From Daphnia pulex (taxonomy: Eukaryota > Arthropoda > Branchiopoda > Diplostraca > Daphniidae): a stretch of DNA of 64,000 nucleotides. The stretch covers positions 3,286,001-3,350,000 of the forward strand of contig NC_060027.1 of the NCBI RefSeq assembly GCF_021134715.1, given 5' to 3'. The notes under the pieces were generated by a model that had not been told where the DNA came from, did not search any database, and saw only the letters and a program-made list of their open reading frames with translations. A program made the translations under genes and the position numbers. Positions 5,528-28,410 of the stretch are shown here, piece by piece. Every line of letters begins with the position of its first letter. The first letter of the stretch is position 1.

Positions 5528-5977
5528 AATCATTTTGCAAGTAATATTTCTGACAAGCGACTTGCAGATAGTTTTTCTCCATTACATAAATAATTTCTTC
5601 AAAAAAAAATTGTTTTGTAACAGATAATAAATGTTTCGTATGCAAAGTGCAATCCAGAACGATGTTGCAAAAAGAGATGTATTTTCAAAAGTAGAGTAAT
5701 ACACACAAGGGGAAAAATTTGTATTTTTGAAATGATGTCCAACAATTAGAAGACTGTGTATATTGCTATAGAATGGAGAGAACACAGAGGATGCTAAACT
5801 ACTGATGGGCTTCAAGGATTAGCCTACAGGGTGGATAAGAAATATTGAATGAGGAAAAATATTGATGTTGAAATATAAAAATACCAGTACTTTGTATAAA
5901 AGACATACACCGGTATGCTCACGTTAAAAACACTTGTTTGTTTTACCGTGAATTTATTCAATTTCAAAAACAGAAAG

Positions 5978-6611
5978 TTAGCCGAAAGTCTTAACCACAC
6001 CGGCCGGCAGTGGACAACAAAGTTTTTTAAATCCTGTCCAACATCTTTTCCCATTTCCTCTCTTGTCCGTCAAAGCTTCCTGATAAGTCTTGCCGCATGC
6101 TGGACTACAAAATGGAGCAGTTCCACTCCAGAAGCATCCGGAAGATGGATCTAAAGGATTCGGTGGCACTACATTGGACACAATCTGTGGGACGACTGCA
6201 ACTGCAATTTTCGATTGCATTTAATTAAAACATTGTAAATGATAACAATGAAAGAGCAGCGTAAATACAAAATAGAAACAAAATTCTTTTTTGTTCGAAA
6301 TAGCATTATGAAAAGTATAGCTTTACCCTGACGTTTCTCTCTCAAGTAGGCAGTGGGATTATCGCGAGTTTCCACTTCTGCAAAATAATTAAAACAAATA
6401 AATACATGAAAACATTGAAAACTGAAATGGCAAAACAATATTATACCCAAACTGTCGAAATACTGTGCATTGGTGAGCACCATCATAGCCAGCAAGGAAA
6501 CCACCTTAAAAATGGTTACAGAAAATTAGCTATTTTGGGCAAATTTAGCTTTTTTTTTATTCTTTTTAAATTTTCAGTTCAAATTTTTACCAGAGTAATG
6601 AAACAGTTCAT
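5978..6611 (-). CDS. secreted six-cysteine peptide precursor with dibasic cleavage site
   Basis: Four exons on the minus strand, 6611-6591, 6504-6447, 6377-6327 and 6201-5978, all with GT-AG borders and matching phases, give 117 residues. Residues 1-20 are a signal peptide (MNCFITLVVSLLAMMVLTNA). A short acidic pro-segment (about 21-42) ends in LREKR followed by Gln43, a furin or prohormone-convertase type site. The last 75 residues carry six cysteines at 66, 75, 79, 97, 105 and 106, spaced C-x8-C-x3-C-x17-C-x7-CC, around the block GTAPFC. This could fold as a small disulfide-bonded extracellular peptide. I do not recognise the family; hormone-like, antimicrobial or matrix roles are all open. 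An AATAAA signal lies about 20 bases past the stop (minus strand, near 5952). Confidence 0.75.
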
Positions 6612-7636
6612 GGCTGGAGACATTCGTAGAGATTGGTGTTTAAATGTTTCGGCTTTTTCTTCGACACAACTAGGACAAACTTAAAAAGTTGTCTAAACGC
6701 ATCAGATTTCGAGAAACCAATGAATTTTCATTTGGCTTCGAAACATTATACGGAAATGTACGGACAAAGCGGGCAACTTAAAATTTTCGTCTGTTGATAA
6801 GCGTTTACAAAGAAAATTCGTGGCCAAAACATACTACTACTAATGTGGTTTTCCATCCTTTATCGTCAGTTATACTACAAAAGCGGTTTCCGGGCTTAAG
6901 CAATGATTTTTATCACAGCGTAGTGCTTATTTAGTTATTCCTCATCGTTCTAAATAGACCTCCAGATTCGGTATCTTTAAGTTTAAATCTAGGGCTTTAG
7001 AATGAAAGAATAATAAAATAACCTTGTTGCGGTTAGTTGATCTATGACAAATTTCTAGAGACATTCTCCTAAAATTAATTAATTTACTTTTCATGATCTC
7101 AAGACATGAAGTGTTTCAATGCCTACACATATTGCTGCATTGCTGTGTTTATATGTTTAGTTAAGAGTAACACCATTGTTTACCGTAATTTCTATTTGGT
7201 AGATTACGCTAATCTCATACAAGGAGGATATCCGTTTCTGACAAGAAAAAAAAATCAATTTATATTGAAAATTATTAAAGTGGTTAACCAACAGTACAGT
7301 CCAAGACGATAAGAAATCATGGATGATATCATGATGAGGGTTAATATTAAACAAAACTAAGTAATAATTATGGATAAAAATGTTTTGAATACGTCTTAAT
7401 ATTATTGGCGCCATGACATAGCCTACTAGTTCATAAGAAAAGTCAAATATTAAAATTATAAAAAAATGAAACGGCAACGTTGTAAAAAAACAAATACTGC
7501 AGTCGACAAAATACAAAACAAGCGTAACGGCGTAAGCGTAACCTCCAAGTGCGAGTCGACTGGATTTGGTAGGAAGATGGTTTCAGACTAAAAATTAATT
7601 TTACAGTATTGGCTTGAATTTATTCCCTGTTTGCAG

Positions 7637-8096
7637 TAAAGAAATTGCTCGATATGTAAGAACGGAAACCCAGGAACCGAAGGATCAAGCCCACGATTTT
7701 CCCTCCGCTGTGCTGACTCATGGCGCCATTGTTGCTCATCACAAACAAGTGACTCTTGGTAAGCCTATATACCTTTAAATTTGCAGTGATGGTTAACATG
7801 TTACATTCTCTTGTTATTTATTTCTCAGCCAACGTCAGGCTGACTTTTCAGCAAAGAGCGGCAGAGAAGAAGAATCCAATATCAGCTGTGATGTGTAAGT
7901 TGAACAGCATTTCAAGCAATTATTCATCTGTTTTACTCATATTGTATGCAATTTTTTTATCTAATCTAGACTAGTCTTATCTGATGCTGTGATTTCGGCA
8001 AGGAAAAACTTGTTGAATGAGGGTTGTAGTTTGGAGGATAGTGAATTTGGTTGCTTGGTTAATGAGGATGATGCTCTTAGGACCTCGTCTTTTTAA
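7637..8096 (+). CDS. unrecognised gene, last three exons (5' end not found)
   Basis: Exons 7637-7758, 7829-7894 and 7975-8096 have good acceptors (TTTGCAG, TTTCTCAG, CTAG) and donors (GGTAAG, TGTAAGT). All internal junctions are phase 1, so the frame stays open for 102 codons to a TAA at 8094. The conceptual C-terminus starts KEIARYVRTETQEPKDQAHD, continues through LTHGAIVAHHKQVTL and NPISAVM, and ends DDALRTSSF. It is hydrophilic and helical-looking, with no membrane segment. The last exon could also start at an earlier AG, but that puts a stop in frame. The upstream exons were not located between 6.6 and 7.6 kb, so this may be a gene fragment left by rearrangement. No function can be assigned. 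Confidence 0.5.
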
Positions 8097-8284
8097 TTTT
8101 AATTTAACCTTGTCTTAATCCAAATCAAACTCAACAAGGTACTTTATTGTTATACTTATGCAAATTCTTCATTTGTGCGTAGATTAATATGTTTTATTAT
8201 GAAGCCTGTATGAAGCCCCACTTTGTGAGATTTAGTTAGTAGCACTGTTAGTTTACATTATATTGTACAGACAGACATCAGACA

Positions 8285-8360
8285 TTTGGAGGGAGTAACA
8301 ATCGAACCCTGGGTCTTTGTAAGCAACATTTAGTTACTATAACCATTATACCATTTTCGC
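8285..8360 (-). ncRNA. tRNA-like sequence with Pol III A and B boxes
   Basis: On the minus strand a perfect A-box (TGGTATAATGG, 8353-8343) is followed about 35 bases later by a nearly perfect B-box (GGTTCGATTGT, 8308-8298, expected to end in CC). Acceptor and T stems do not close well, so this is not a functional tRNA. It is either a decayed tRNA or the head of a tRNA-derived SINE. Confidence 0.3.
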
Positions 8361-8989
8361 TCATCGTTTGAGTGATCTGCGGAAGTTGTTCATATTATTA
8401 CGAAGAAACCTGTCTGAGAGAGTAAAGGAATGTTTACTTTGATTAAGGTCCATAGTAGTATTAGCTAAGTGGTTCAGTTTAGATTTTTTACGCTTGAGTC
8501 CCAACTCCTGAGTTAATTTCTGGCGCAGGCTATTGTAGACTACATCAGATATTGGTGTATTGTGACATGTAGTAAGTAGGGAAATATATTACAAATTTTA
8601 AGCTTATGTTTGGATGTATGTACAGTATGGATATTCAAACGCTAATTCTCACTAGAGGGTGTCAGTAAAAGGTGAGTACAAGGATTGTTCCAGTGTTAAC
8701 ATTTTTGCAGCTTTTGATAACTTATTGACCGAGAAGAGAGGTTTCTAACAAGGCTCAACTGTGTGCCCATCATGAAATGAATATGGACTGATCATGTGTT
8801 TGTGTTTGAAACTTAGACAGGATTGCAGAGGAATATTTTCAAAAATGCCGACTGTCTTTCAAAAGGTTCGAAATGGAAGATTTATTCATTCACCCAAGAA
8901 ACGAGTCGAAATACTCTAATGTCAATTGGTATAAAGTGAAAAAAGTTTAAGTCATAACCATCTGTATTTGGTATTCATTTTGATATTGG

Positions 8990-9510
8990 TAGACCCATTC
9001 CAATCCCCAGCAACGTCAAACTGCAGAAGGAAAGGCCAATTTGGATTTCCTTCACTTTCGAAGGTCACGGAGATCATTACGTAAAACGTGTGGTGTAGAG
9101 GTTGGGTGAGAACGGGATGTGTTAAATAACCATTTGGTTTTTATTTTGATATTGGTTTTTGTAGACCCATCCCCAGCAACGTCAACCTAAAGAAGGAAAG
9201 GCCAGTTTGCATTTCCTTCACTCTCGATGAAGGTCACGGAGATCATTACGTAAAACTGTCAATGCGGTGGTGTAGAGGTTGGGTCAGAATGACACGTGTT
9301 TCGTCATTATCAAAGCAGGTACAATAGCCGCAAGGGTAAACTATTTGGTATTCATTTTGATTTTGGTTTTTGTAGACCCATCCCCCATCAACGTCACCTG
9401 GCAGAAGGAAAGGCTAGTTTGCATTTCAATCGAAGGTTATGGAGATCATTTCGTAAAAGGTGTCATGCAGTGGTGTAGAGGTTGGGTGAGAACAGTAAGT
9501 TTTGCATCAT
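8990..9510 (+). repeat. three tandem exon-like repeat units
   Basis: Units begin at about 8991, 9161 and 9374, each after a TTTTGTAG acceptor-like sequence. In the shared frame they encode variants of PSNVNLKKERPVCIS followed by EGHGDHYVK and WCRGWVR. Unit two ends at a CAAAGCAG/GTACAA donor-like site. The first unit has a stop and a shortened tail. They look like duplicated exons of a lost or decaying gene; I do not recognise the family. The left outer edge of the large palindrome (about 9156) falls at the start of the second unit. Confidence 0.6.
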
Positions 9511-9564
9511 TATCAAGAAGGTAAAATAACCGCAAGGCTTAAGAGGAGGGGTGAGAAAAAGTCG

Positions 9565-9600
9565 TATAAAAGGCGAGAGAAAAGTCGACAGGGATCAGTC
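9565..9600 (+). promoter_or_regulatory. TATA box and initiator of the tyrosine-rich gene array (left arm)
   Basis: A TATAAAAGG box at 9565-9573 lies 30 bases before an arthropod-type initiator TCAGTC at 9595-9600. That is canonical core-promoter spacing. Related modules without a good TATA box recur near 9815, 10400 and 10750, each keeping the CAGTCGAG initiator region followed by a CTCCGACACGGCAACAGC-like leader. Confidence 0.7.
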
Positions 9601-10325
9601 GAGCGAGTATCTCCGACACGGCAACAGCTGCATTTCTCTATTTGCCATTCAGCTGCATTCTTCATCGTATTATCAGTTCTCAATCATGGGTAAATTTTCT
9701 GTTGTTATATGGAGTTATGTATCAATTTCTATTGTGTTTTTCTCTTTGTTAACATGCCAGATATTTTTGCATATTAATTGTTATTTATTGTTTAGTCGTA
9801 CATAAGGGCAAGGAAAAGGCGAAAGAAATCAGTCGAGTGAGCATCTCGACACGATAACAGCAACTGCAGTGAACTATTTGTCACCAACTGTATTATTCGT
9901 CGAATTGTTAGTTTAAATCATGGGTAAAAATTTTTACATGGAGTTGTGAATCAACTTATTATTTTTTAACATGCCAGTTATAATGTTCAAGCAATTATTT
10001 GTCTAGCAAAATATGGCGTCGTGCTGCATTTGTGTGTTGCATCGTTGATGGCTGGGTCGGCCGCTGGTGTACCGATGTCTCCTGGGCATGGCGGATAACA
10101 AATTGCAACGCCGCCACCTTACTACACAACATACGACACGACCAGTTGCTACACCGAAGTCCCCGAGTACTGCACCAAGGCTTCAGGTTATTATACCACA
10201 ACTTATGCTGCCCTGAGCTACTACACCGAATCCCCGCAGTATTGTTCTTCCCCGAGCTACACTACCAAAGGGTCGATTACTACACCGATGCTCCGAAGTA
10301 CTGCACAACTACATATCATGGGTAA
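9595..10325 (+). pseudogene. tyrosine-rich repeat protein, broken copy 1 (left arm)
   Basis: The leader exon from module 2 ends in ATGG at about 9919 before GTAAAA. It joins an exon after TTGTCTAG at about 10006 to encode a clear signal peptide, MAKYGVVLHLCVASLMAGSA. The frame then meets a TAA in GGCGGATAA within about ten codons. Beyond that, the same frame still spells YYTTYDTTSCYTEVPEYC, YYTTTYAALSYYTE and similar repeats until a frameshift near 10270. This matches the layout of arthropod secreted tyrosine-rich structural proteins: a tiny first exon with the ATG, then a signal peptide and YYT repeats. The stop and the frameshift argue for a pseudogene. The first promoter module (9565-9688) is followed by an intron-like stretch leading into module 2, not into coding sequence. 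Confidence 0.65.
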
Positions 10326-10469
10326 ATATTCTGTTACATAGAGTTTTAAATATTCCAGTTGCTCCTATCTAAATTATTTACTTTAATTGCTGAAGAGAGA
10401 AAAAAGGCGAAAGAAATCAGTCGAGTGGTCATCTCCGACACGGCAACAGCAGCTGCAGTGCCAAGGCTC

Positions 10470-10668
10470 AGTATTACACCACAACTTATGTTACCCCGAG
10501 ACTCTGCACCAAAGCGCCTGAGTGCTATACCGAGGGCACTAATTTCTACACCACCAAGGCACCGGAGTACTACACTGCAGCATACGCTGCTCCAGATTAT
10601 TACACCGAGGCTCCCCAACACTACACCACCAAGGCACTGGAGTACTACACCACTACATATCATGGTAA
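10470..10668 (+). pseudogene. tyrosine-rich repeat fragment 2 (left arm)
   Basis: An open stretch encodes AQYYTTTYVTP, YTEGTNFYTTKAPEYYT, YAAPDYYTEAPQHYTTKAL and EYYTTTYHG up to a GGTAAAT donor-like end. It is fused directly to a promoter/leader module (CAGTCGAG...GGCAACAGCAGCTGCAG) with no ATG or signal-peptide exon between them. It is a chimeric fragment, not a complete gene. Confidence 0.6.
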
Positions 10669-10967
10669 ATATTCTGTTATGTGGAGTTTAATATGGCATC
10701 CACTAAATATACAAATTATTTATTGTCTAGTCGTATGAACGGAGAGAAAAGGTGAAAGAATTTAGCAGTCGAGTGAGCATCTCCGTTACAGCAACAGGAA
10801 CTGCCGTGCACTTTTTGTCATCAACTTCATTCTTCGTCCCATTACAAGTTTAAATAATGGTAAAAAATTTTCCACAGAGTTGTGAATCAACTCTACTATT
10901 TTCTATTTGTTAATATACCAGAACCATAATTGAATTTTAAAATTTATTAATTGTCAAGTAAACTATG

Positions 10968-11335
10968 GCGGCGTGCTGCTGTTGGGTGTTGTATCGTTGA
11001 TGGATGGGTCGACTACTGGTGTACCGATGTCTTCTGGGTATGGCGATTACCAAAGTACAACACTGCTCTGCCGTCTTTCTGGTCTTTCTATTTAGCATCA
11101 ACTTCCGCTGCTCCAGCTTACTACACTGAGGCTCTCAAGTGCTACTCCATCAAGGCTCCAGTTTATTACACCACAGCTCATGTTGCCCTAAGCTACTAAG
11201 CAGAATACCCGAAGTATTTTTTCCCGAGCTACACTACCAAAGGGTCGAGTACTACGTCGAGGCTCCCAAGTACTACATTACCAAGGCACCGGAGTACAAA
11301 AACGGTCGATTACTACACAGAAGCAATCATAGGTT
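10968..11335 (+). pseudogene. tyrosine-rich repeat protein, broken copy 3 (left arm)
   Basis: It begins with an exon homologous to the signal-peptide exon of copy 1 (TATGGCGGCGTGCTGCTG). The leader ATG near 10857 has lost one G, so the junction shifts phase. Repeats such as AAPAYYTEALKCYSIKAPVYYTTAHVALSY end at a TAA near 11198, and further YYT-like sequence follows in other frames. Decayed. Confidence 0.6.
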
Positions 11336-11439
11336 AATATTTTTTATTTTTCATGGAAATGTGAATCAACTCTATTCTTTTCTAATTGCCAATGTGCTAG
11401 TTATTATTGCATATAAAATGTTCAAATTATTTGTCTAGC

Positions 11440-12086
11440 AACTATGGCGTTGTGCTACTGTGAATGTTTTAACGTTGATCGCTGGATGGACCACTGGTGT
11501 GCCGATTTCTCCTGGATATGACGGGCATGAATAATCCGTAGCAACCGGTTATTACACTGGGGCCCCGAATTACTACACCACCAAGGGTTCAGAGTGTAAC
11601 AGAAGTATTTTTCTTCCCAGAACTTCACTACCTTCACCACGCCGATTACTGAACACCTACTTACCATTCGAAGGTCTCCAGTGCTACGCCACAATGACTC
11701 CTGAGTATTAATCTTCAACCTACGACGTTCCAGCTAACTATAATAATGCTCCCTTGTACTGTTCTGTTCCCAGCTACTACACCGAATATTTAACTTGTCA
11801 CACCACTGAAGCGCCCAAGTACTGCACTACAACCTACGTTGCTCCAGCTTACACCACGAAGGCAGCGGAGTACTACACCACGAAGGCAGCGGAGTACTAC
11901 ACCACGAAGGCAGCGGAGTACTACACCACGAAGGCAGCGGAGTACTACACCACGAAGGCAGCGGAGTACTACACCACGAAGGCAGCGGAGTACTACACCA
12001 CCGAGGCACCGGAGTACTACACCATTAACTACGCTTCCGCAACTTGCTACATTCTTTTGCTAATTCTTTTGCAAGATTTTTGGTAG
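11440..12086 (+). pseudogene. tyrosine-rich repeat protein, broken copy 4 with octapeptide array (left arm)
   Basis: The start region again resembles the signal-peptide exon (AACTATGGCGTTGTGCTACTG) but contains early stops in every frame. From 11754 a frame of 110 codons is open: LYCSVPSYYTEYLTCHTTEAPKYC, then TTYVAPAY, six TTKAAEYY octapeptides, one TTEAPEYY variant and a hydrophobic tail ending LLLILLQDFW. The repeats are typical of the family; the tail is not. This frame could still be translated, but no intact leader leads into it. Confidence 0.55.
11853..12020 (+). repeat. 24-bp minisatellite, seven units
   Basis: Six perfect 24-bp units encode TTKAAEYY in frame, followed by one variant unit encoding TTEAPEYY. 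The identical third positions show recent unit amplification. Confidence 0.95.
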
Positions 12087-12509
12087 TAACATCAAGCCGT
12101 CATCATTTCGACAGGTGTCTATTGGTGATGGACTACTTTAAGCCCAGTATCCTGCGCTGTAATATGTATTTTTCATATTTTAGAGGTGACCACTGCCTTA
12201 ATCAGTCTGCATACGGACGTATTCTTGTGTTTTGACGATTTCACAAGGATAGGTTACGAAAGAAACTTGTAACTGTTGATTTTGAAGTCTTATAAGTAAA
12301 ACACAAGTCACAAGTGGATAAACTTTGTATAAATGAAAAACTTGAAGTTGAGAGTAATACATTGAAACAATTCCTAAACACTTGGTATAAATTAAGAAAC
12401 AATGATGTATGTAAAAAAAACTTATATAAAGAATTGTGTTATATTGTCCCACCTCCACCCACAATTCCACCACATTTTACAGTCACATACACACAAACAT
12501 ACACTTAAG

Positions 12510-12779
12510 TTAACCCGTTGGCTGCCACGCCATACAACCCGTGGGTTGTACTCTCTACTACTCTACGCGCCACGTCAGAAGGATCCATGACCAAGGTGGG
12601 ACTTGCCATTGCTGACAAGTCCGGGCTGACAAGAGGGGTGCATGGTGCATTGCCTGAAACAGGCGCCTCGCGGCAAGTTTTGGGCTTGGCGACTTTCCGA
12701 CCCCGCGGCTTGTAAACCACGAGACCGAACAGCGCGGCCCGTGCAGGGGAGAACAAAGGCGTGGCAGTCAACGGGTTAA
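12510..12779. mobile_element. piggyBac-type MITE (left arm)
   Basis: A 262-bp element (12514-12775) is bounded by TTAA on both sides (12510-12513 and 12776-12779). Its imperfect terminal inverted repeats are CCCGTTGGCTGCCACGCC and GGCGTGGCAGTCAACGGG. TTAA target duplication with a CCC-type end is the hallmark of the piggyBac superfamily. It has no transposase and is much more GC-rich than its surroundings. Confidence 0.85.
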
Positions 12780-12786
12780 CTAACAC

Positions 12787-12939
12787 TTAACACAAACGAC
12801 ATAATACCAACAATACGATGATCCACGTTGATGACGAGTCTCGGTGTCTGTCGCGATTCGACCGAGTTTCGTTCGCACCAGGAGCAGGGGCAACATCCGA
12901 CGGAGACCGGTGACGACTGTTAAAGATGAGAAAATCCAT
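12787..12939 (-). CDS. hypothetical 50-residue tail-anchored microprotein (left arm)
   Basis: An ATG-initiated frame of 50 codons, starting MDFLIFNSRHRSPSDVAP, has a hydrophilic Arg/Ser-rich middle and a hydrophobic C-terminus (WIIVLLVLCRLC). It follows a TTATTCAG acceptor-like site. No homologue is recognised, and chance is a real alternative at this length. Confidence 0.2.
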   Translation of the reverse strand: MDFLIFNSRHRSPSDVAPAPGANETRSNRDRHRDSSSTWIIVLLVLCRLC

Positions 12940-13136
12940 CTTCTCGACGTCTCCTCTGCATTACCTGAATAAAGACAAAACAATTCTTATTAAGTGAATA
13001 AGTGACATTCCAATAAAAGTTACATAATAGTCACATGATACATATAGGTATATTGATTTGGTTTTTTTCTCAAAACCTCAAAGGCGCGCTGTAAATTGTT
13101 AAAAATCTACCTTACAATATTGAGAACTGTACACAT

Positions 13137-13524
13137 AACAAAGCTCACTTGCTGGTCTTAAAAAAAAATTCCGGAAGTACACCGGAAGTAACCACAGCGT
13201 CCCAACCATTGAGCTGTTGTCAATTTAAACCACATATTCGTGATCCCCATGAAATTTGGGGTCGATTAGATGTGATTCAAACAAAATCCAAAATTTGACC
13301 AAAATCGAGAATTTTCCTGAACTATAATTCAGGAAAATTCTCAAAACCGGAAGTACGAAAACGTAAAAAAGATTACATGAACTTTACCACAAATTTGACG
13401 AGGATCACGAATATGTGGTTCTTTTGCTCCTCGAATGAATATTTACTGAACTACTGACTGAAATGAGCAAACCGGAAGTAGAAAAAAAAAGCAATTGTCG
13501 AAAATTTAACAAGTGAGCTTTGTT
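13137..13524. mobile_element. 388-bp palindromic MITE with CCGGAAGT motifs (left arm)
   Basis: Terminal inverted repeats are AACAAAGCTCACTTG (13137-13151) and CAAGTGAGCTTTGTT (13510-13524). The interior is an imperfect palindrome centred near 13328, where GAGAATTTTCCTGAA meets its complement. ATATTCGTGATCC/GGATCACGAATAT and several CCGGAAGT copies occur on both sides. There is no coding capacity and no convincing target duplication, so the superfamily is unknown. Confidence 0.75.
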
Positions 13525-14189
13525 GCTGGAATAGTAATCGTCAGTTATCACTAAATATTTCAACAAAATAACTGCCAATAAATGTTTAAAGAGATGTGCA
13601 AAGTAACTGAAACTGACTGTTTTGACAGCTGCAAATTATCAAAAAGCCATCTAGCGTTGGAAAAAAGAAACGTCAAAGTAAAACTTCGTTTGAGCGTAAG
13701 AAGGGCCTGATTTTGGAAACTATTACACAGACAGAGTCTAACGCAACTAGACTATTAATAGATAACCTACGAAAATAAGTCAATTGTTGGGTACCTGGGC
13801 ATAATCCCGTGGTGAGTGACTGCAGGTGTGTAACAGCGGACGGAAGCGATCACTGAAGTGGTCCAGAAACTCGCCAAGTCGCCAGTGAAGTAAAACACTT
13901 AGAAGCAGTGAAGCTAGATGAGCGGGCGTCGCGAAGATAAGGATGGAGAAGAACTTTGATGGAAGTCCCTCTTCCGTCATGGACAAAGGTCAGCATGGGC
14001 ACAAGAATCTCCGTGACAGGACCACACGATTCCATAAAGAAACTGCGTGCTCTGTAAAATAAAATGTTTTACATTAATGAAAATATAACAAAGATTAAAG
14101 CATATCAATCTTTACCTTTTCTAAGTAGCACACTGCAATTTTCATGATGAAAAAACTGTAAAAATGGAATTCACAGCAACCAACAGCCT

Positions 14190-15475
14190 ATCTCTTAGCT
14201 GGGTTGCCTTCTAAACAGAAGTAAAAACAGCCCATAACAACAAGCATTCTGTTGCAGGGTATGCCACCAAAATTGCGAGATTCAGAAAAGATCCTATGGA
14301 TCAAGAATACCTATACGTTCATGAACAAGAACACCTATGTTATGTGAAAATCTGAATTGTAATGGTCTGGTAGCAGTAATGGAGAAATACCTTACCTCTG
14401 CACATTTTTATTCCACTATATGTGTGCTTCAAACATCAGTTTTAGGCTTTTGGCTGCATGAGGATCTAATGGATGGAAATTGACTGAGCGCTAAGTCAAC
14501 TTGTTGGAATGACTGACAGTATACATCTAAAATTTGAAGAAATACGTTGGTACAGTAAAAAATTAAGGAAACTAGGTAAAGATAAACCTACATATGTACA
14601 AAGTTCAATTTGATAATTGAAATCACAGGAATATAAGTATAAATTTGCAACAATTTGTTTCGCTCATTTCGCCTCGTTTCACCATGAAAGAACAACAACA
14701 TGGGCGACACTAGCAACATCTGGTAATGAGTTTTGAAGAGTTCCGTTTGGAGTTGGCAACTTAGGATTCAAAACTTATTACCAGATGTCGCTAGTGTCGT
14801 CCTTGTTGTTGTTCTTTCATGGTGAAACGAGGGAAAATTGGCGAAACAATTGGTTGCTAATTATACTTATATTCCTGTGATTTCATATACCAAATTGAAC
14901 TTCGGAACTTATGTAGGTTTGCCTTGACCTAGTTTCCTTAATTTTTTACTGTACCAACGTATTTCTTCAAATTTAAGATGCATACTGTCAGTCATTCCAA
15001 CAAGTTGACTTAGCGCTCAGTAACTTTCCATCCAATAGATCCTCATACTGTCAAAAGCCTAAAACTATTGTTTGAAACTCGCATATAGTGGAATTCAAAT
15101 CTGCCGAGTTAAGGTATTTTCCCATTACAACTACCAGACCATTACAATTCAGATTTTCATTGTAACATAGGTATTGTTGTTCATGTACTTTTTCCGACTT
15201 TTCTGAATCTCGCAATTTTGGTGGTGTAACCTGAAAAATTATGTTTGCTCTTATGGCTGTTTCTATTTCTGTTTAGAAGGCAACCCAAGTGAGAGAAAGG
15301 TGAACATGTATAATGTGTGTGTACGCATACATGTTCCAGTTCTGCTTGATTCCTTACTAAATTCATCGGCTGTATGTTAAAGGTAAGCATCAATACCATC
15401 TTCTATCACCATGCTACTGCAACACTTCATGACACTTTCTTAAGCATCAGGAAATTTATCTCAACATGAGGAGTA
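14190..15475. repeat. palindrome spacer
   Basis: This is the 1,286-bp single-copy centre between the two arms. Most of it (14200-15287) is itself an older fold-back element. The remaining 188 bp on the right (15288-15475) has no partner on the left, so the spacer is asymmetric. Confidence 0.9.
14200..15287. mobile_element. fold-back element with about 540-bp arms
   Basis: Left half 14200-14737 and right half 14767-15287 are diverged inverted copies, roughly 85-90% alike by eye. Both run from TGGGTTGCCTTCTAAACAGAA through ACCACCAAAATTGCGAGATT, GCTAAGTCAACTTGTTGG and ATGAAAGAACAACAACA to a 29-bp loop. There is no open frame of note. Its symmetry centre (about 14,745-14,752) is roughly 85 bp left of the centre of the large palindrome (14,832.5), so it is a separate, older structure. 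Confidence 0.85.
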
Positions 15476-16140
15476 AGGCTGTTGGTTGCTGTGAATTCCA
15501 TTTTTACAGTTTTTTCATCATGAAAATTGCAGTGTGCTACTTAGAAAAGGTAAAGATTGATATGCTTTAATCTTTGTTATATTTTCATTAATGTAAAACA
15601 TTTTATTTTACAGAGCACGCAGTTTCTTTATGGAATCGTGTGGTCCTGTCACGGAGATTCTTGTGCCCATGCTGACCTTTGTCCATGACGGAAGAGGGAC
15701 TTCCATCAAAGTTCTTCTCCATCCTTATCTTCGCGACGCCCGCTCATCTAGCTTCACTGCTTCTAAGTGTTTTACTTCACTGGCGACTTGGCGAGTTTCT
15801 GGACCACTTCAGTGATCGCTTCCGTCCGCTGTTACACACCTGCAGTCACTCACCACGGGATTATGCCCAGGTACCCAACAATTGACTTATTTTCGTAGGT
15901 TATCTATTAATAGTCTAGTTGCGTTAGACTCTGTCTGTGTAATAGTTTCCAAAATCAGGCCCTTCTTACGCTCAAACGAAGTTTTACTTTGACGTTTCTT
16001 TTTTCCAACGCTAGATGGCTTTTTGATAATTTGCAGCTGTCAAAACAGTCAGTTTCAGTTACTTTGCACATCTCTTTAAACATTTATTGGCAGTTATTTT
16101 GTTGAAATATTTAGTGATAACTGACGATTACTATTCCAGC

Positions 16141-16528
16141 AACAAAGCTCACTTGTTAAATTTTCGACAATTGCTTTTTTTTTCTACTTCCGGTTTGCTC
16201 ATTTCAGTCAGTAGTTCAGTAAATATTCATTCGAGGAGCAAAAGAACCACATATTCGTGATCCTCGTCAAATTTGTGGTAAAGTTCATGTAATCTTTTTT
16301 ACGTTTTCGTACTTCCGGTTTTGAGAATTTTCCTGAACTATAGTTCAGGAAAATTCTCGATTTTGGTCAAATTTTGGATTTTGTTTGAATCACATCTAAT
16401 CGACCCCAAATTTCATGGGGATCACGAATATGTGGTTTAAATTGACAACAGCTCAATGGTTGAGACGCTGTGGTTACTTCCGGTGTACTTCCGGAATTTT
16501 TTTTTAAGACCAGCAAGTGAGCTTTGTT
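16141..16528. mobile_element. 388-bp palindromic MITE (right arm)
   Basis: Mirror copy of 13137-13524. It carries two of the four arm-specific substitutions (16338 and 16463). Confidence 0.75.
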
Positions 16529-16725
16529 ATGTGTACAGTTCTCAATATTGTAAGGTAGATTTTTAACAATTTACAGCGCGCCTTTGAGGTTTTGAGAAAA
16601 AAACCAAATCAATATACCTATATGTATCATGTGACTATTATGTAACTTTTATTGGAATGTCACTTATTCACTTAATAAGAATTGTTTTGTCTTTATTCAG
16701 GTAATGCAGAGGAGACGTCGAGAAG

Positions 16726-16878
16726 ATGGATTTTCTCATCTTTAACAGTCGTCACCGGTCTCCGTCGGATGTTGCCCCTGCTCCTGGTGCGAACGAAACT
16801 CGGTCGAATCGCGACAGACACCGAGACTCGTCATCAACGTGGATCATCGTATTGTTGGTATTATGTCGTTTGTGTTAA
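16726..16878 (+). CDS. hypothetical 50-residue tail-anchored microprotein (right arm)
   Basis: Mirror copy of the frame at 12787-12939. It ends 7 bp before the piggyBac MITE. Low support for the same reasons. Confidence 0.2.
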   Translation: MDFLIFNSRHRSPSDVAPAPGANETRSNRDRHRDSSSTWIIVLLVLCRLC

Positions 16879-16885
16879 GTGTTAG

Positions 16886-17155
16886 TTAACCCGTTGACTG
16901 CCACGCCTTTGTTCTCCCCTGCACGGGCCGCGCTGTTCGGTCTCGTGGTTTACAAGCCGCGGGGTCGGAAAGTCGCCAAGCCCAAAACTTGCCGCGAGGC
17001 GCCTGTTTCAGGCAATGCACCATGCACCCCTCTTGTCAGCCCGGACTTGTCAGCAATGGCAAGTCCCACCTTGGTCATGGATCCTTCTGACGTGGCGCGT
17101 AGAGTAGTAGAGAGTACAACCCACGGGTTGTATGGCGTGGCAGCCAACGGGTTAA
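16886..17155. mobile_element. piggyBac-type MITE (right arm)
   Basis: Mirror copy of 12510-12779 with TTAA at 16886-16889 and 17152-17155. It was copied with the arm and is not an independent insertion. Confidence 0.85.
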
Positions 17156-17578
17156 CTTAAGTGTATGTTTGTGTGTATGTGACTGTAAAATGTGGTGGAA
17201 TTGTGGGTGGAGGTGGGACAATATAACACAATTCTTTATATAAGTTTTTTTTACATACATCATTGTTTCTTAATTTATACCAAGTGTTTAGGAATTGTTT
17301 CAATGTATTACTCTCAACTTCAAGTTTTTCATTTATACAAAGTTTATCCACTTGTGACTTGTGTTTTACTTATAAGACTTCAAAATCAACAGTTACAAGT
17401 TTCTTTCGTAACCTATCCTTGTGAAATCGTCAAAACACAAGAATACGTCCGTATGCAGACTGATTAAGGCAGTGGTCACCTCTAAAATATGAAAAATACA
17501 TATTACAGCGCAGGATACTGGGCTTAAAGTAGTCCATCACCAATAGACACCTGTCGAAATGATGACGGCTTGATGTTA

Positions 17579-18225
17579 CTACCAAAAATCTTGCAAAAGA
17601 ATTAGCAAAAGAATGTAGCAAGTTGCGGAAGCGTAGTTAATGGTGTAGTACTCCGGTGCCTCGGTGGTGTAGTACTCCGCTGCCTTCGTGGTGTAGTACT
17701 CCGCTGCCTTCGTGGTGTAGTACTCCGCTGCCTTCGTGGTGTAGTACTCCGCTGCCTTCGTGGTGTAGTACTCCGCTGCCTTCGTGGTGTAGTACTCCGC
17801 TGCCTTCGTGGTGTAAGCTGGAGCAACGTAGGTTGTAGTGCAGTACTTGGGCGCTTCAGTGGTGTGACAAGTTAAATATTCGGTGTAGTAGCTGGGAACA
17901 GAACAGTACAAGGGAGCATTATTATAGTTAGCTGGAACGTCGTAGGTTGAAGATTAATACTCAGGAGTCATTGTGGCGTAGCACTGGAGACCTTCGAATG
18001 GTAAGTAGGTGTTCAGTAATCGGCGTGGTGAAGGTAGTGAAGTTCTGGGAAGAAAAATACTTCTGTTACACTCTGAACCCTTGGTGGTGTAGTAATTCGG
18101 GGCCCCAGTGTAATAACCGGTTGCTACGGATTATTCATGCCCGTCATATCCAGGAGAAATCGGCACACCAGTGGTCCATCCAGCGATCAACGTTAAAACA
18201 TTCACAGTAGCACAACGCCATAGTT
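17579..18225 (-). pseudogene. tyrosine-rich copy 4 (right arm)
   Basis: Mirror of 11440-12086 on the minus strand, with the same open 110-codon frame (17911-17579) and octapeptide array. Confidence 0.55.
17645..17812 (-). repeat. 24-bp minisatellite, right-arm copy
   Basis: Exact mirror of 11853-12020 with the same unit number in both arms. For a mutable minisatellite this implies very recent duplication or continuing arm-to-arm conversion. Confidence 0.95.
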
Positions 18226-18329
18226 GCTAGACAAATAATTTGAACATTTAATATGCAATAATAACTAGCACATTGGCAATTAGAAAAGAATAGAGTTGAT
18301 TCACATTTCCATGAAAAATAAAAAATATT

Positions 18330-18697
18330 AACCTATGATTGCTTCTGTGTAGTAATCGACCGTTTTTGTACTCCGGTGCCTTGGTAATGTAGTACTTGGG
18401 AGCCTCGACGTAGTACTCGACCCTTTGGTAGTGTAGCTCGGGAAAAAATACTTCGGGTATTCTGCTTAGTAGCTTAGGGCAACATGAGCTGTGGTGTAAT
18501 AAACTGGAGCCTTGATGGAGTAGCACTTGAGAGCCTCAGTGTAGTAAGCTGGAGCAGCGGAAGTTGATGCTAAATAGAAAGACCAGAAAGACGGCAGAGC
18601 AGTGTTGTACTTTGGTAATCGCCATACCCAGAAGACATCGGTACACCAGTAGTCGACCCATCCATCAACGATACAACACCCAACAGCAGCACGCCGC
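18330..18697 (-). pseudogene. tyrosine-rich copy 3 (right arm)
   Basis: Mirror of 10968-11335, with the same defects. The arm-specific base 18250 lies just beyond it. Confidence 0.6.
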
Positions 18698-18996
18698 CAT
18701 AGTTTACTTGACAATTAATAAATTTTAAAATTCAATTATGGTTCTGGTATATTAACAAATAGAAAATAGTAGAGTTGATTCACAACTCTGTGGAAAATTT
18801 TTTACCATTATTTAAACTTGTAATGGGACGAAGAATGAAGTTGATGACAAAAAGTGCACGGCAGTTCCTGTTGCTGTAACGGAGATGCTCACTCGACTGC
18901 TAAATTCTTTCACCTTTTCTCTCCGTTCATACGACTAGACAATAAATAATTTGTATATTTAGTGGATGCCATATTAAACTCCACATAACAGAATAT

Positions 18997-19195
18997 TTAC
19001 CATGATATGTAGTGGTGTAGTACTCCAGTGCCTTGGTGGTGTAGTGTTGGGGAGCCTCGGTGTAATAATCTGGAGCAGCGTATGCTGCAGTGTAGTACTC
19101 CGGTGCCTTGGTGGTGTAGAAATTAGTGCCCTCGGTATAGCACTCAGGCGCTTTGGTGCAGAGTCTCGGGGTAACATAAGTTGTGGTGTAATACT
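18997..19195 (-). pseudogene. tyrosine-rich fragment 2 (right arm)
   Basis: Mirror of 10470-10668. The arm-specific base 19275 lies in the neighbouring intron-like sequence. Confidence 0.6.
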
Positions 19196-19339
19196 GAGCC
19201 TTGGCACTGCAGCTGCTGTTGCCGTGTCGGAGATGACCACTCGACTGATTTCTTTCGCCTTTTTTCTCTCTTCAACAATTAAAGTAAATAATTTAGATAG
19301 GAGCAACTGGAATATTTAAAACTCTATGTAACAGAATAT

Positions 19340-20070
19340 TTACCCATGATATGTAGTTGTGCAGTACTTCGGAGCATCGGTGTAGTAATCGACCCTTTGG
19401 TAGTGTAGCTCGGGGAAGAACAATACTGCGGGGATTCGGTGTAGTAGCTCAGGGCAGCATAAGTTGTGGTATAATAACCTGAAGCCTTGGTGCAGTACTC
19501 GGGGACTTCGGTGTAGCAACTGGTCGTGTCGTATGTTGTGTAGTAAGGTGGCGGCGTTGCAATTTGTTATCCGCCATGCCCAGGAGACATCGGTACACCA
19601 GCGGCCGACCCAGCCATCAACGATGCAACACACAAATGCAGCACGACGCCATATTTTGCTAGACAAATAATTGCTTGAACATTATAACTGGCATGTTAAA
19701 AAATAATAAGTTGATTCACAACTCCATGTAAAAATTTTTACCCATGATTTAAACTAACAATTCGACGAATAATACAGTTGGTGACAAATAGTTCACTGCA
19801 GTTGCTGTTATCGTGTCGAGATGCTCACTCGACTGATTTCTTTCGCCTTTTCCTTGCCCTTATGTACGACTAAACAATAAATAACAATTAATATGCAAAA
19901 ATATCTGGCATGTTAACAAAGAGAAAAACACAATAGAAATTGATACATAACTCCATATAACAACAGAAAATTTACCCATGATTGAGAACTGATAATACGA
20001 TGAAGAATGCAGCTGAATGGCAAATAGAGAAATGCAGCTGTTGCCGTGTCGGAGATACTCGCTCGACTGA
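19340..20070 (-). pseudogene. tyrosine-rich copy 1 (right arm)
   Basis: Mirror of 9595-10325, with the same in-frame stop after the signal peptide. The two arms therefore place the arrays tail to tail, with both promoters pointing toward the palindrome centre. Confidence 0.65.
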
Positions 20071-20100
20071 TCCCTGTCGACTTTTCTCTCGCCTTTTATA
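20065..20100 (-). promoter_or_regulatory. TATA box and initiator (right-arm copy)
   Basis: Mirror copy of the core promoter at 9565-9600, reading leftward. It is sequence-identical, with the TATA box at 20100-20092 and the initiator at 20070-20065. Confidence 0.7.
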
Positions 20101-20509
20101 CGACTTTTTCTCACCCCTCCTCTTAAGCCTTGCGGTTATTTTACCTTCTTGATAATGATGCAAAACTTACTGTTCTCACCCAACCTCTACACCACTGCAT
20201 GACACCTTTTACGAAATGATCTCCATAACCTTCGATTGAAATGCAAACTAGCCTTTCCTTCTGCCAGGTGACGTTGATGGGGGATGGGTCTACAAAAACC
20301 AAAATCAAAATGAATACCAAATAGTTTACCCTTGCGGCTATTGTACCTGCTTTGATAATGACGAAACACGTGTCATTCTGACCCAACCTCTACACCACCG
20401 CATTGACAGTTTTACGTAATGATCTCCGTGACCTTCATCGAGAGTGAAGGAAATGCAAACTGGCCTTTCCTTCTTTAGGTTGACGTTGCTGGGGATGGGT
20501 CTACAAAAA

Positions 20510-20660
20510 TCAAAATGAATATCAAATAGTTTCCCCTTGCGGCTATTGTACCTGCTTTGATAATGACGAAACACGTGTCATTCTCACCCAACCTCTACAC
20601 CACCGCATTGAAAGTTTTACACGTAATGTTTCCCGCGACCTTCAAGCGAGAAGGACATCA
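20510..20660 (-). repeat. additional exon-like repeat copy outside the right arm
   Basis: A further copy of the unit seen at 8990-9510, reading leftward. It contains TTGGGTGAGAATGACACGTG and CAAAGCAGGTACAATAGCC. It flanks the outer palindrome boundary, as the first unit does on the left side. Confidence 0.6.
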
Positions 20661-21149
20661 TGTCTGGACAAACTGGCCGACCTGTCTGCAGGTTGACTTG
20701 CATGCAAAAAAATGTAACGAATCTAAAACTCCTCACATATATTAACTGCAAAGTTACCTCGAGTATGAGTGAGGATTCCCTAGAGTTCAGAGCTATCCTT
20801 CCAAACTAATATAAAGACGTCGCAAAAGGCCAGTAACGGCAACCAGCGCCAACTCCATTGACCACAAGAACGAAATTTATAACCTTAGTGTTTGCAGATC
20901 TGTTGGAAAGAATAAAATGATTATTGTTTATGGATTAAAACAGAAATAAAAATGTTATTATTTCCTATCCTATTCATATTTCCTATTCATATATGTTTTC
21001 ATGCACGAATGTGGTACATGTAGCCTACATAATTATGGCAGGTTATTCACTTCACACACCCTTCATGTCTCTGAAACTCTAAGTGGGAATGGGACAAGGA
21101 AATTCTCTGTTATTTACAAATTTACACAAATTTACCGATGAGCATTAAA
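20661..21149. other. AT-rich stretch without gene
   Basis: No supported feature was seen. A repeated CTATTCATAT motif occurs near 20970-20990. Confidence 0.4.
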
Positions 21150-21663
21150 ACTGTAGCTACCTAGAAGTAGAAACAGCCATAACAGCAAACATGCTGTTGC
21201 AGGGTACACCACCAAAATTGCGAGATTCAGAGATCCTATGGTTCACGAGCAAGAATATCAATGTTATATGAAAATCTGAATTGTAATGGTCTGGTAGCAG
21301 TAATGGGGAAATACCTTATCTCGGCACATTTGTATTACACTATATGTATGCTTAAAACATGAGTTTTAGGCTTTTGACAGCATGATGGGCCTAATGGATG
21401 GAAATTGACTGAGCGCTAAGTCAACTTGTTGGAATGACTGACAGTATGCATCTAGAATTTGAAGAAATAAGTTGGTACAGTATAAAAATAAGGAAACTAG
21501 GTCAAGATTAACCTACATGAGATACAAAGTTCAATTTGATATTTGAAATCACAGGAATAAGTATATAAACTAGCAATAATTTGTTTCGTCATATTTCGCC
21601 TCGTTTCTCCATGAAAGAACATCGACGACACTAACGACATCTAGTAATGAGTTTTGAATCTAA
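21150..21663. mobile_element. solo arm of the fold-back element
   Basis: This matches the left half of the central element (14200-14737) in the same orientation. It shares ACCACCAAAATTGCGAGATT, ATTGTAATGGTCTGGTAGCA, GAGCGCTAAGTCAACTTG and CATGAAAGAAC, and ends GTAATGAGTTTTGAA. It is diverged and lacks the first few bases. The second half and loop are absent. Confidence 0.85.
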
Positions 21664-22202
21664 AGTTAGTTGCACACTTGCACAGTCAGTCTGTCACGGA
21701 CAGGCATGACATTACACGTCGTAACTTTTCTAAGTTATTATTAAATTAACGATGCTGTCCTCTCAGTATTAATTGCATTGCAATTTGTTGTTGAACTTGA
21801 ACAGCTATTTTTTTCAGATCGGACTATCAGACAACGACATAGAAAAAGAGGTTGTCGCCCATTGATTAGTCATGGATTGGTTCTCTATTTCAAATATTGC
21901 ACCAGCTGACAGCCTTACATTTCCGCTTCTTAGAATAAATAGATGCTCTCCGTATTTCTTTCTTTCTTCGATAGATGGTGTAGTAGGTAGGGAATTCCCC
22001 TTGTTACCTCCCAGCTAGCTGCCTCCCAGTCCCAGGTCCCAGCCGTTTTTTTTTTTAAGTATTACAGTTAACGGTTAACCGTACCGTGTGTAGAAAAAAT
22101 AATCAAAGTTTCTCTATTAAGCACTTGATTAAATTTTAAATTACGAGAATTATTTGTATTGTGAACAAAACAATAAAATCATATTCATCGGCAAAAAGAA
22201 AT

Positions 22203-22273
22203 TGCATCGACCGGGAATCGAACCCGGGCCGCCCGCGTGGCAGGCGAGCATTCTACCACTGAACCATCGATGC
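22203..22273 (-). tRNA. tRNA-Gly (anticodon GCC)
   Basis: The minus strand gives a 71-nt cloverleaf. The acceptor stem GCATCGA pairs with TCGATGC plus discriminator A. The A-box region is TGGTTCAGTGG, the anticodon loop is CTGCCAC (GCC), and the T arm is CCGGGTTCGATTCCCGG. A run of five T follows shortly downstream, suitable as a Pol III terminator. Confidence 0.97.
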
Positions 22274-23400
22274 TTATACAATATTTCTCTTGTCTTAAAA
22301 TATAAATGTATAATAAAGATGAAAAGAAAAAAAAATAAAATTTGCAATAATATGACAAACAGATATCCACGAAAAACTCATAAACCTGAGCACTCAGCTG
22401 TGCGAGCATCAAATCAAAACGTTAAATAAATAAATTTGAAAAATAATATGAATTCAGATATCGAATCGAGTCACTGCCACGACAGAGATTGAATAGTTTT
22501 ATATTCGAAAAGCTGTATGTCTTAAAGTTATTGGTAGACAACGATTCTAGGAATACGTCACGACGGTTGAAATTGCTAAGAAATTTAAAACTCCCCGTCT
22601 GCGAAAGATCCCAGGCAATATTGCAATGTAATATGAATAATAAACTAGAAAAAAAAATTAGAGACTCCCACGACCATGAAGAAATCTGCTGCGTACTACA
22701 TTTATAGATTTTACTAATACGTACATTTATAGATTTTAGATATAGAGCATACATTCCCATCTTGTGTAATAGAAAAGGACCGGATGTGACCGGATATTCC
22801 CTGATGTACAACATTAGTAAGAGCAACAGCAGCCGCCGCAATAAAGCCCATTATCGAAAATCAACTATCAAAACACTTAGAGAAGGGAAGACAACAAGAC
22901 ATACACACACAGAGAGAGAGAAAAACAAAATATAGCCTGCTGCTGCTGCTTGTGTTGCCGCCTTCAGCCGTCTGTGTGTTGAGTTTGCTTTTAGCGAAAC
23001 TTTTTTCTTACAGTATATATACGCTACTATACTCTATACATCTAAGCGGCGCGCGCCGATGCAAAGCCCTCGCCGCTCTTTAACAACGACCTTGGTTTAT
23101 AAGACATTCTGATAGAGAGAAAGAAGAGTTTGCGCTGCCCGGCCATCCCCGTGTTCAGTTGGTCCTTTTACGCACCCAGTGACAGAGTTATCTTCCATAA
23201 TCCTCGCTCAGCTTCGTCCACAAGGGGATAGAACCGCCGGTTTGTTTACCAAAAAAATAATAAAAATAAATAAAAGTTTTGTAATCATTTTTCCCCTCTC
23301 GCCTTTACTCGTTTACAATTTTGTGAACACTTGCAACAAACAAATGAGTTATACGCCATCATTTTCTGTTAAATATTAACAGGTGATATTTTTCTTGGTC
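22274..23400. other. upstream region of the KChIP-like gene
   Basis: No coding exon was found. TATATATA-like sequence occurs near 23012, and AACAG just before 23382 looks like a splice acceptor for an exon that would carry about 18 bases of leader before the ATG at 23401. The promoter and untranslated first exon probably lie here. Confidence 0.4.
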
Positions 23401-27851: not shown

Positions 27852-28104
27852 AATAATTTAACTAATCTTAAAAGGTATGTCACCACCAAGGACGAATGAA
27901 AATTTTGTTTCAATTCAAGTATGTCATTATTTGTCAATCTTTCGATTTCAGGAATCTCAGCATTGTCGTGTGTAACATACTTGAATGAAGATCTGAAACT
28001 AGGACTGAATGAAATTGAAAACAATAAGACGACTCCTAAATGTAGGCCCTAATTCAAAATTGAATTGAATAGACCTCGAAAACAGAGTGATGAGAAGCAT
28101 TAGC

Positions 28105-28272: not shown

Positions 28273-28410
28273 CCATTAGCTCTCAAACATAGCCAATAAC
28301 AATATTACACTATATATAAGAAAAATTATTTGTTTGACTTATAGCCTAATGTTTCAATGGGAATGTTTAATAATTGTATACGGATCAACTTAATAAACTG
28401 AATTGTATAT

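Follow-up and report, generated by a model that had tools for sequence, protein, structure and literature searches.

A near-perfect palindrome of Daphnia pulex, with arms probably kept alike by gene conversion, belongs to a large family of related palindromes dispersed over the genome

An 11.35-kb palindrome located in a 64,000-nucleotide stretch of Daphnia pulex DNA (contig NC_060027.1, positions 3,286,001 to 3,350,000, hereafter the window) has many palindromic relatives dispersed through the genome, with which it forms a large family. Evidence from one assembly indicates that this palindrome is probably old and that its arms are most likely kept alike by arm-to-arm gene conversion, which would fail near the fold. 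Active conversion was one of three origins offered by a sequence-only reading of the window and is the best supported of them, whereas the other two, i.e., a recent duplication and a fold-back artefact, are disfavoured.

Direct pairing of each position i with position 29665-i upheld the claim of that reading that the palindrome is near-perfect, with 5,034-bp arms and no indel. The arms (9156-14189 and 15476-20509) differed by 4 mismatches per 5,034 bp and 0 indels (99.92% identity), the only mismatches being at 10390, 11415, 13202 and 13327 (mates of 9156-14189 run from 20509 to 15476), and the perfect runs along the arm measured 1234, 1024, 1786, 124 and 862 bp. By the same pairing, 71-83 of 100 positions were mismatched in 100-base bins that lay fully outside the arm or within the centre. 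Inverted 25-mers numbered 10,014 in the window as opposed to 0 in each of 5 mononucleotide shuffles. The 1,286-bp "spacer" between the arms (14190-15475) was an inverted repeat too, with 83.6% identity over 1,143 bp by BLAST and 86% in a second alignment, so the palindrome extends through the full 11.35 kb and is diverged at its centre, here called the axis. The features of the locus and its flanks were as follows.

9156..14189, + strand: left arm, 5,034 bp (position-by-position pairing)
15476..20509, - strand: right arm, 5,034 bp (position-by-position pairing)
14190..15475, no strand: axis, 1,286 bp, an inverted repeat that is kin to the axes of other loci
9128..9537, + strand: ~203-bp repeat, 2 copies, at the outer end of the left arm (TRF)
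20128..20644, - strand: ~205-bp version of that repeat, 2.5 copies, at the outer end of the right arm (TRF)
9542..9569, + strand: anchor B, a conserved promoter-like block with a TATA-like word, left arm (genome-wide word search)
20096..20123, - strand: anchor B, right arm (genome-wide word search)
11712..12086, + strand: YYTT-repeat gene copy of decayed appearance, left arm, oriented towards the axis, with an open stretch of 124 aa
17579..17953, - strand: mirror YYTT-repeat gene copy, right arm, convergent with the left copy
11850-12024: 24-bp repeat, 7.3 copies, in the left YYTT copy (TRF)
17641-17815: 24-bp repeat in the right YYTT copy (TRF)
12429..12456, + strand: anchor A, a conserved 3'-side word, left arm (genome-wide word search)
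17209..17236, - strand: anchor A, right arm (genome-wide word search)
7360..8900, no strand: left-flank DNA related to sequences at other places in the genome, without a mirror on the right here
21041..21738, + strand: axis repeat of ~700 bp, third copy, present in the right flank alone (sequence match)

The near-perfect symmetry of the arms would suit an assembly or fold-back-read artefact, but such an origin is extremely improbable. A fold-back read copies one strand and is symmetric up to its tip, whereas the axis was asymmetric, and the two flanks were different DNA. In addition, the same build was noted at 14 more loci, each with its own arm differences and several with unequal lengths of repeat array between the arms.

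The family was delineated by a search of 133.19 Mb on 13 contigs, in which hits merged into at least about 246 groups; 15 loci (i.e., the window palindrome and 14 others) were read. The 14 further loci, on seven contigs, were palindromes in every case (14/14), with longest arm pieces 96.8-99.9% alike, and their similarity to the window palindrome was roughly 70-91%, most being 10-27% diverged from it. The build shared by the loci read consisted of convergent gene-like arms, outer repeats of ~200 bp and a related axis of at most about 1.3 kb between the 3' sides. A probe from locus Q1 detected the ~200-bp end repeat close to each of the two outer ends in all 15 palindromes read, the match being weak (70%) in P10. 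A reverse-transcriptase frame was seen within the ~6.2-kb unpaired centre of P7b. Genome-wide matches at 3 or fewer mismatches, all of them listed, numbered 90 for anchor A (control 0) and 82 for anchor B (reversed control 0), and together the anchors formed 48 distinct convergent pairs on nine contigs, 1 divergent pair and 0 same-strand pairs, a count that would miss partners with more than 3 mismatches. Convergent pairs at 48 places on nine contigs are at odds with the view, put forward in the earlier reading, that such arms are rare outside sex chromosomes. Hits were unpaired in 24/57 anchor-A groups and 22/52 anchor-B groups, one of each being paired via the other anchor. No description of this family was found in the open-licence literature on Daphnia palindromes, inverted gene pairs and the repeat, which does not prove that none exists.

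A recent inverted duplication, in which the second arm was made from the first a short time ago, would be consistent with arms that are 99.92% identical and without indels, this identity corresponding to about 0.9-1.7e5 generations at 2.3-4.53e-9 per site per generation. The centre left by such an event should, however, be either perfectly palindromic or not palindromic, and the axis is instead an 83.6% inverted repeat. The same architecture and a related axis were also present at other loci, whose divergence from the window is 10-27% in most cases, and recent independent duplications would be required at each of the 15 loci read. We therefore regard this origin as highly unlikely.

The axis was less alike than the arms in 13/13 loci profiled, Q1 and Q2 being left out of the profiling. 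A 500-bp promoter/exon segment had a mean identity of 99.8% (minimum 98.7%) within loci, based on 10 loci with both arms, and of 85.3% (range 79.8-98.7%) between loci. In a tree of the inner arms, arms paired by locus in 12/12 loci with both arms (the right inner arm of P7b was missing from the alignment), with weaker identity, i.e., 92.9-97.3%, in P9a, P9b and P2. The inner-arm segment of the window contained 23 private substitutions common to both arms compared with 2 arm differences. Over the 12 loci there were 192 private-shared changes and 184 arm differences, and 177 of these differences fell in P9a, P9b and P2. Those of P9a and P9b sat in a diverged zone reaching 1.25 kb from the axis while those of P2 formed a separate patch 1.0-1.5 kb from the axis, which poor conversion at the fold, in its simple form, does not explain.

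A different pattern appeared in the axis tree, from which P7b was left out and for which P8a was unreliable near the axis, one side having been reversed by the aligner and the other being too short for the tree, to which P8a gave one usable side. Axis sides grouped across contigs for P7c and P11d (P7c_R with P11d_L at 0.999, P7c_L with P11d_R at 0.962) and between loci on C9 (P9a_L with P9b_R at 0.978), unlike the arms of these four loci, which paired by locus. The axis sides of the window were also apart, W11_L grouping with P11a and P11b at 0.960 and W11_R being placed elsewhere, weakly (0.40, 0.56). Axis sides still grouped by locus in 6/12 loci (P7a, P11a, P11b, P3, P2 and P10). Thus, support for active conversion comes from the diverged axis as opposed to the near-identical arms, from the clustering of arms by locus and of axes across loci in two locus pairs, and from the excess of shared locus-private substitutions over arm differences in the inner arm of the window. 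P7c and P11d were about 93.6% alike in the centre compared with 70-85% in outer pieces, which suggests that exchange between loci probably occurs as well.

If arm-to-arm conversion is responsible, recurrent non-reciprocal copying between the two arms would erase arm differences, in events within the locus that could proceed either by folding back or from one chromatid or homologue to another. Conversion would be poor over the few hundred bases nearest the fold, and these would preserve a record of how old the palindrome is. Copying that overran the outer end of an arm would account for mirrored flanking DNA at the C2 locus, where 1,450 bp of mirrored sequence were found at exactly two places in the genome, one per arm (2/2 candidates scored).

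A palindromic unit that has tandem repeats close to its ends and is dispersed over the genome might also be seen with a Foldback-like transposon, in which the whole unit moves and arm identity is remade at each transposition (e.g., through a single-stranded hairpin) and not by later conversion. The unpaired anchor hits are consistent with such movement, as are Q1 and Q2, which lie 80 kb apart on C11 and have nothing in common but the unit (95%), one being next to a PRP8 gene and the other next to a CLIP-domain frame. A hairpin copy would, however, leave the axis as identical as the arms, yet the axis was the diverged part in each of the 13 loci profiled, and the DNA mirrored at C2 is unique to that locus and lies outside the unit. 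No common word of at least 7 was found between the outer flanks chosen for the window palindrome (8881-9000 and 20631-20760), although the ends varied between loci, and no transposase domain was found in the frames scanned, few of which were within units (i.e., 10 ORFs of the window, of which 2 lay in the arms, and 7 of 40 frames of at least 170 aa from the loci read, one of the 7 scanned in part). Movement of the unit and conversion of the arms are compatible, and the transposon account competes only over the upkeep of arm identity, for which it is unlikely.

Under conversion, the palindrome would be older than the identity of its arms suggests, judging from the diverged axis and from two locus pairs in which axis sides group across loci. 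Axis divergence was about 0.185 after Jukes-Cantor correction and exceeds the silent divergence of ~0.134 between D. obtusa and D. pulex quoted in an excerpt of PMC12926508, so a palindrome is predicted at the orthologous site of the sister species. Since the axis repeat occurs elsewhere (i.e., the third copy at 21041-21738), the 83.6% identity of the axis could partly date that repeat and not the palindrome. At conversion equilibrium c = 2u/d, and the arm divergence of 4/5034 gave a conversion rate of about 0.6-1.1e-5 per site per generation. This is of the same order as the rate of loss of heterozygosity in D. pulex (6.47e-6), which appears with mutation rates of 2.3-4.53e-9 in the same excerpt (PMC12926508), an agreement that is suggestive only.

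The left flank of the palindrome (7360-8900) was 84% identical to C11:3875685-3877234 over about 1.5 kb, and several relatives of this flank adjoined other family members. Tandem segmental duplication of a ~80-kb unit in which one palindrome was included by chance would fit the fairly even spacing of loci in some blocks, but this explanation was contradicted at the places tested and was rejected as barely credible. Thus, 24800-30800 was without a match elsewhere longer than about 180 bp (32/32 candidates scored), and the flanks of Q1 and Q2 were unrelated. Weaker evidence of the same kind came from 20750-24750, without matches outside 21009-21738 (40/566 candidates scored), and from 4900-8900, without matches outside 7360-8900 (40/121 candidates scored).

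Few groups lay closer than 45 kb among the groups listed. Spacing was compared, for listed positions in five blocks chosen for density (the list being one from which groups are missing), with random gaps of at least 25 kb, matching the merging of data positions closer than 25 kb. Two or three of the five blocks were more even than chance and two were not. Random placements that reached the minimum gap and those with gap variation as low or lower were, respectively, 0/5000 and 153/5000 for C7 0.02-1.16 Mb, 34/5000 and 13/5000 for C7 11.20-12.21 Mb, 156/5000 and 139/5000 for C10 2.22-3.06 Mb, 70/199 and 91/199 for C7 10.22-11.04 Mb and 3028/5000 and 4403/5000 for C9 0.81-1.78 Mb. A view of the family as a structural component of Daphnia chromosomes that has so far gone unrecognised, i.e., as a self-spreading palindrome that avoids the vicinity of its own copies, has a conserved promoter-like block and is maintained by arm-to-arm conversion whether or not its gene copies still code for protein, is decidedly doubtful. 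In that case, something akin to target immunity, or a role in the chromosome linked to domains of 50-100 kb, would set the spacing.

The YYTT-repeat gene copies in the arms of the window look broken, their frames being short or interrupted, so upkeep of intact proteins is unlikely as the reason for arm identity at this locus and was rejected as an explanation there. Loci that keep open frames encode the YYTT-type 24-bp repeat behind a signal-peptide-like stretch, and long open frames were present at other places outside the window locus. Searches of Rfam at gathering scores revealed no known structured RNA in the palindrome and only a tRNA in the window. Integration associated with this tRNA-Gly (22203-22273) was considered and rejected, ARAGORN having found 0 tRNAs in 30 other locus pieces.

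Likenesses to known systems were noted in the excerpts available of the papers cited. Active maintenance was inferred in Caenorhabditis for paralogous gene pairs that form long inverted repeats (Zhao et al. 2007, PMC1803023) and that, like the loci described here, involve convergent or divergent duplicate genes of an invertebrate with intergenic DNA in the inverted repeat, arms closer within a genome than to orthologues and structure more conserved than sequence. The window palindrome likewise holds a convergent pair of homologous genes inside the repeat, in broken-looking copies. Unlike the present case, the excerpted account (PMC1803023) concerns a few gene pairs, the intergenic arms measuring 124-160 bp in two examples, as opposed to one dispersed family with arms of several kb and a diverged axis usable as an internal clock. 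Mammalian Y/X palindromes (PMC3723533, PMC8981503) resemble the present ones in having multi-kb arms of >99% identity kept by arm-to-arm conversion and differ in that many small related palindromes occur here, on nine or more contigs. Foldback/Galileo elements (PMC3573991) are also dispersed inverted units with internal tandem repeats (~210 bp), solo and chimeric copies, and two repeats that are 98-100% identical within a copy, and long inverted repeats with internal tandem repeats were found here as well. Over-long copying in break repair has likewise been proposed to extend the repeats of those elements, in their case towards the inside (PMC3573991). The present loci differ in their ~5 kb arms, gene-like copies, promoter-like block and wide spacing, and no transposase or target-site duplication was found in what was scanned here. 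Palindromes were likewise discussed as a conversion route in clonal animals in a survey of parthenogenetic animals, notably Adineta vaga and Folsomia candida (PMC7953838), which, as excerpted, reported collinear gene-block palindromes, 19 in A. vaga and 15 or 16 in F. candida (its table and its text disagree), and omitted D. pulex for lack of annotation. Unlike the arms in those two species, the arms described here belong to one repeated family.

Palindromes kept by conversion have mostly been discussed for sex chromosomes and, to our knowledge, D. pulex mostly lacks differentiated sex chromosomes. Related palindromes on many chromosomes would let the rate, tract length and bias of conversion, as well as the effect of distance from the fold, be measured by comparing many loci in clonal lines of an animal whose rates of mutation and of loss of heterozygosity have already been determined. 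These palindromes are also a potential source of error for short-read variant calls and for counts of genes and of copy number in this much used model.

Base-by-base comparison confirmed the pairing rule proposed in the sequence-only reading (paired positions sum to 29665), 9156-14189 mating with 20509-15476 with no indels and four mismatches. Inverted 25-mers numbered 10,014 in the window as opposed to none in each of five shuffles. The between-arm DNA (1,286 bp) included 1,143 bp that formed an inverted repeat of 83.6% identity by self-comparison, which indicates that the palindrome continues to its middle and that its centre has diverged. Features of the window, on forward-strand coordinates, are listed here.

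7360-8900, left of the palindrome: DNA related to that at other sites of the family, no mirror copy on the right
9156-14189: left arm
12512-12790 and mirror, both arms: inverted-repeat-like stretch, TTAACCCGTTGGCTGCC ... GGCAGTCAACGGGTTAA (by eye)
13136-13524 and mirror: about 390 bp with AACAAAGCTCACTTG and its complement at the ends, in either arm resembling a small inverted-repeat element (by eye); contains the inner arm's most conserved word
15476-20509: right arm
21041-21738, right of the palindrome: third copy of the axis repeat
59819-60676, outside the palindrome: ORF with a zona pellucida match above cut-off and a cuticlin C-terminal match below cut-off

Read inwards, each window arm contained repeats of about 200 bp, a TATA-containing block, exon-like pieces and a 24-bp array. 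The first of these pieces, by eye an apparent short first exon, ended in ATGG|GT; later exon-like pieces carried a signal-peptide-like stretch, and the array encoded YYTTKAAE-like repeats. In D. pulex, tandem repeats of the 24-bp class are described as denser in coding DNA than elsewhere (PMC3152781), a pattern that the YYTT-coding repeat of the arms would follow. Frames of the window arm were short or interrupted, and from the sequence we infer that the window gene copies are probably pseudogenes. A composite protein query gave at least 174 matches (150 of 2,770 candidates scored), many of them equal-scoring convergent pairs and some retaining open frames 300-617 aa long; the sole Pfam match, Cornifin, was sub-threshold (24 versus 34.8 bits). 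At C7:9301367-9315084, possibly an intact and more complex locus, three YYTT-repeat frames of 399-461 aa and equal protein score lay in the order minus, plus, minus.

The genome searched comprised 133,188,837 bases in 13 contigs, with the window at C11:3286001-3350000. The arm's outer 1,345 bp had at least 132 matches (40 of 591 candidates scored), many of which were plus/minus pairs spaced roughly 9-16 kb apart. Fourteen other loci were read wholly or largely, namely P7a, P7b and P7c on contig C7, P11a, P11b, P11d, Q1 and Q2 on C11, P3 on C3, P2 on C2, P9a and P9b on C9, P8a on C8 and P10 on C10. All 14 were palindromes, although loci picked by arm similarity, and mostly because they were paired, are not a random sample. 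Their main arm pieces were 96.8-100% identical by BLAST, with an additional outer piece at 87% in P8a, and the 10 loci first read were by and large colinear with the window, starting at about 9132-9228 and reaching the axis or, mostly, further, at 73-91% in the listed pieces.

A pair of short, conserved anchor words was counted genome-wide with up to three mismatches, every match being listed and reversed words serving as controls. The word from the promoter-like block matched 82 times and that from the 3' side 90 times, as opposed to 0 for reversed controls. Neighbouring matches grouped into 30 convergent pairs, no divergent or same-strand pairs and 22 singles for the former word, and into 32 convergent pairs, one divergent pair, no same-strand pairs and 24 singles for the latter; since 14 loci were common to both sets, the convergent loci number 48 in all, spread over nine contigs. 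The sole divergent pair (C1:4613101-4617244), reversed in orientation relative to the convergent loci, had a pair of 357-aa frames, equal in score, lying between its anchors. Two further words had 509 and 484 genome matches and no control matches, the first 100 of each being listed. Among the matches listed in all searches, 549 positions merged within 25 kb into 246 groups on twelve contigs, a rough count in which palindrome structure is demonstrated for only part of the groups.

Three origins had been proposed for the likeness of the arms, namely a very recent inverted duplication, a palindrome kept alike by conversion and an assembly or fold-back read artefact. Four lines of evidence favour continued copying over a recent origin. 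Firstly, the bases nearest the axis were less alike than the arms in all 13 loci profiled, identity being 46-96% in the first 250 bp and mostly 99-100% outwards of 0.25-1.25 kb; in P2 identity also dropped to 92-95% in a patch 1.0-1.5 kb out, and the centres of P7b and P8a were non-homologous. In P7b (C7, 10.92 Mb), the unpaired centre of about 6.2 kb included a reverse transcriptase domain within a frame of 1,220 aa, and a retrotransposon seems to sit in this axis. Secondly, in a 500-bp promoter/exon segment, arms within a locus were 98.7-100% identical (mean 99.8%, 10 loci) versus a mean of 85.3% and a maximum of 98.7% between loci, P7a and P7b being close relatives in the tree. Arms also clustered by locus in the inner-arm tree.

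Thirdly, in the axis tree the right side of P7c grouped with the left side of P11d (0.999), the left side of P7c with the right side of P11d (0.962) and the left side of P9a with the right side of P9b (0.978), P7c and P11d being on different contigs. Thus, judging from this tree, the axes of P7c/P11d and of P9a/P9b appear to descend from a common ancestral palindrome, the arms having been made alike separately at each locus afterwards. The cross-locus signal is not general, since axis sides clustered by locus in six of 12 loci; those of the window fell apart, the left grouping with P11a and P11b (0.960) and the right forming a long, weakly placed branch (0.40, 0.56). Fourthly, over 1,253 inner-arm columns, 23 window-private bases (present in both window arms and absent from every other aligned locus) were found versus two arm differences. 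Sums over 12 loci were 192 private-shared changes versus 184 arm differences, 177 of the latter falling in P9a, P9b and P2.

The outer end of the mirrored stretch differed between loci. The C2 palindrome ran from about 896,543 to 910,997, on either side overrunning the unit common to the loci by some 1.8 kb. A 1,450-bp part of the extension was found genome-wide only there, once per arm, indicating that unique flanking sequence had become mirrored. A conversion tract that overran the arm end and was then joined would yield such a flank; a like mechanism is proposed in PMC3573991 for Galileo repeats, acting inwards as opposed to the outward overrun proposed here. Q1 and Q2, 80 kb apart, had only the palindromic unit in common (95%); Q2 adjoins PRP8-domain and cyclophilin-domain frames and Q1 a CLIP-domain frame, so the unit reached separate places.

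Few neighbouring groups among the matches listed were closer than 45 kb (of 234 distances, three were 25-45 kb and 45 were 50-80 kb). Compared with random placements that likewise kept gaps of at least 25 kb, groups at C7 0.02-1.16 Mb and 11.20-12.21 Mb were spaced more evenly than expected by chance (0/5000 and 34/5000 placements reached the minimum gap), with a mean spacing of 76-77 kb and a minimum of 45-51 kb among the matches listed. A C10 block was weakly so (156/5000); no such evenness was seen in a C9 block or in another block on C7.

Palindromes maintained by conversion are already known, as are inverted gene pairs; the nearest known system is the inverted gene pairs reported in Caenorhabditis (PMC1803023). 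No description of a dispersed palindrome family of comparable number was found among the results listed in searches of open-licence literature.

At equilibrium, the conversion rate is c = 2u/d. Taking u, the mutation rate per site per generation, as 2.3-4.53e-9 (PMC12926508), four differences in 5,034 bp yield a conversion rate of 0.6-1.1e-5 on the same scale, similar to the D. pulex loss-of-heterozygosity rate of 6.47e-6 in that source. At these mutation rates the window axis divergence (about 0.185 corrected) would take 2-4e7 generations to accumulate, all of these figures deriving from one locus in one assembly. This divergence exceeds the silent divergence of about 0.134 given there between D. 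obtusa and the D. pulex complex, and orthologous palindromes are therefore predicted in D. obtusa.
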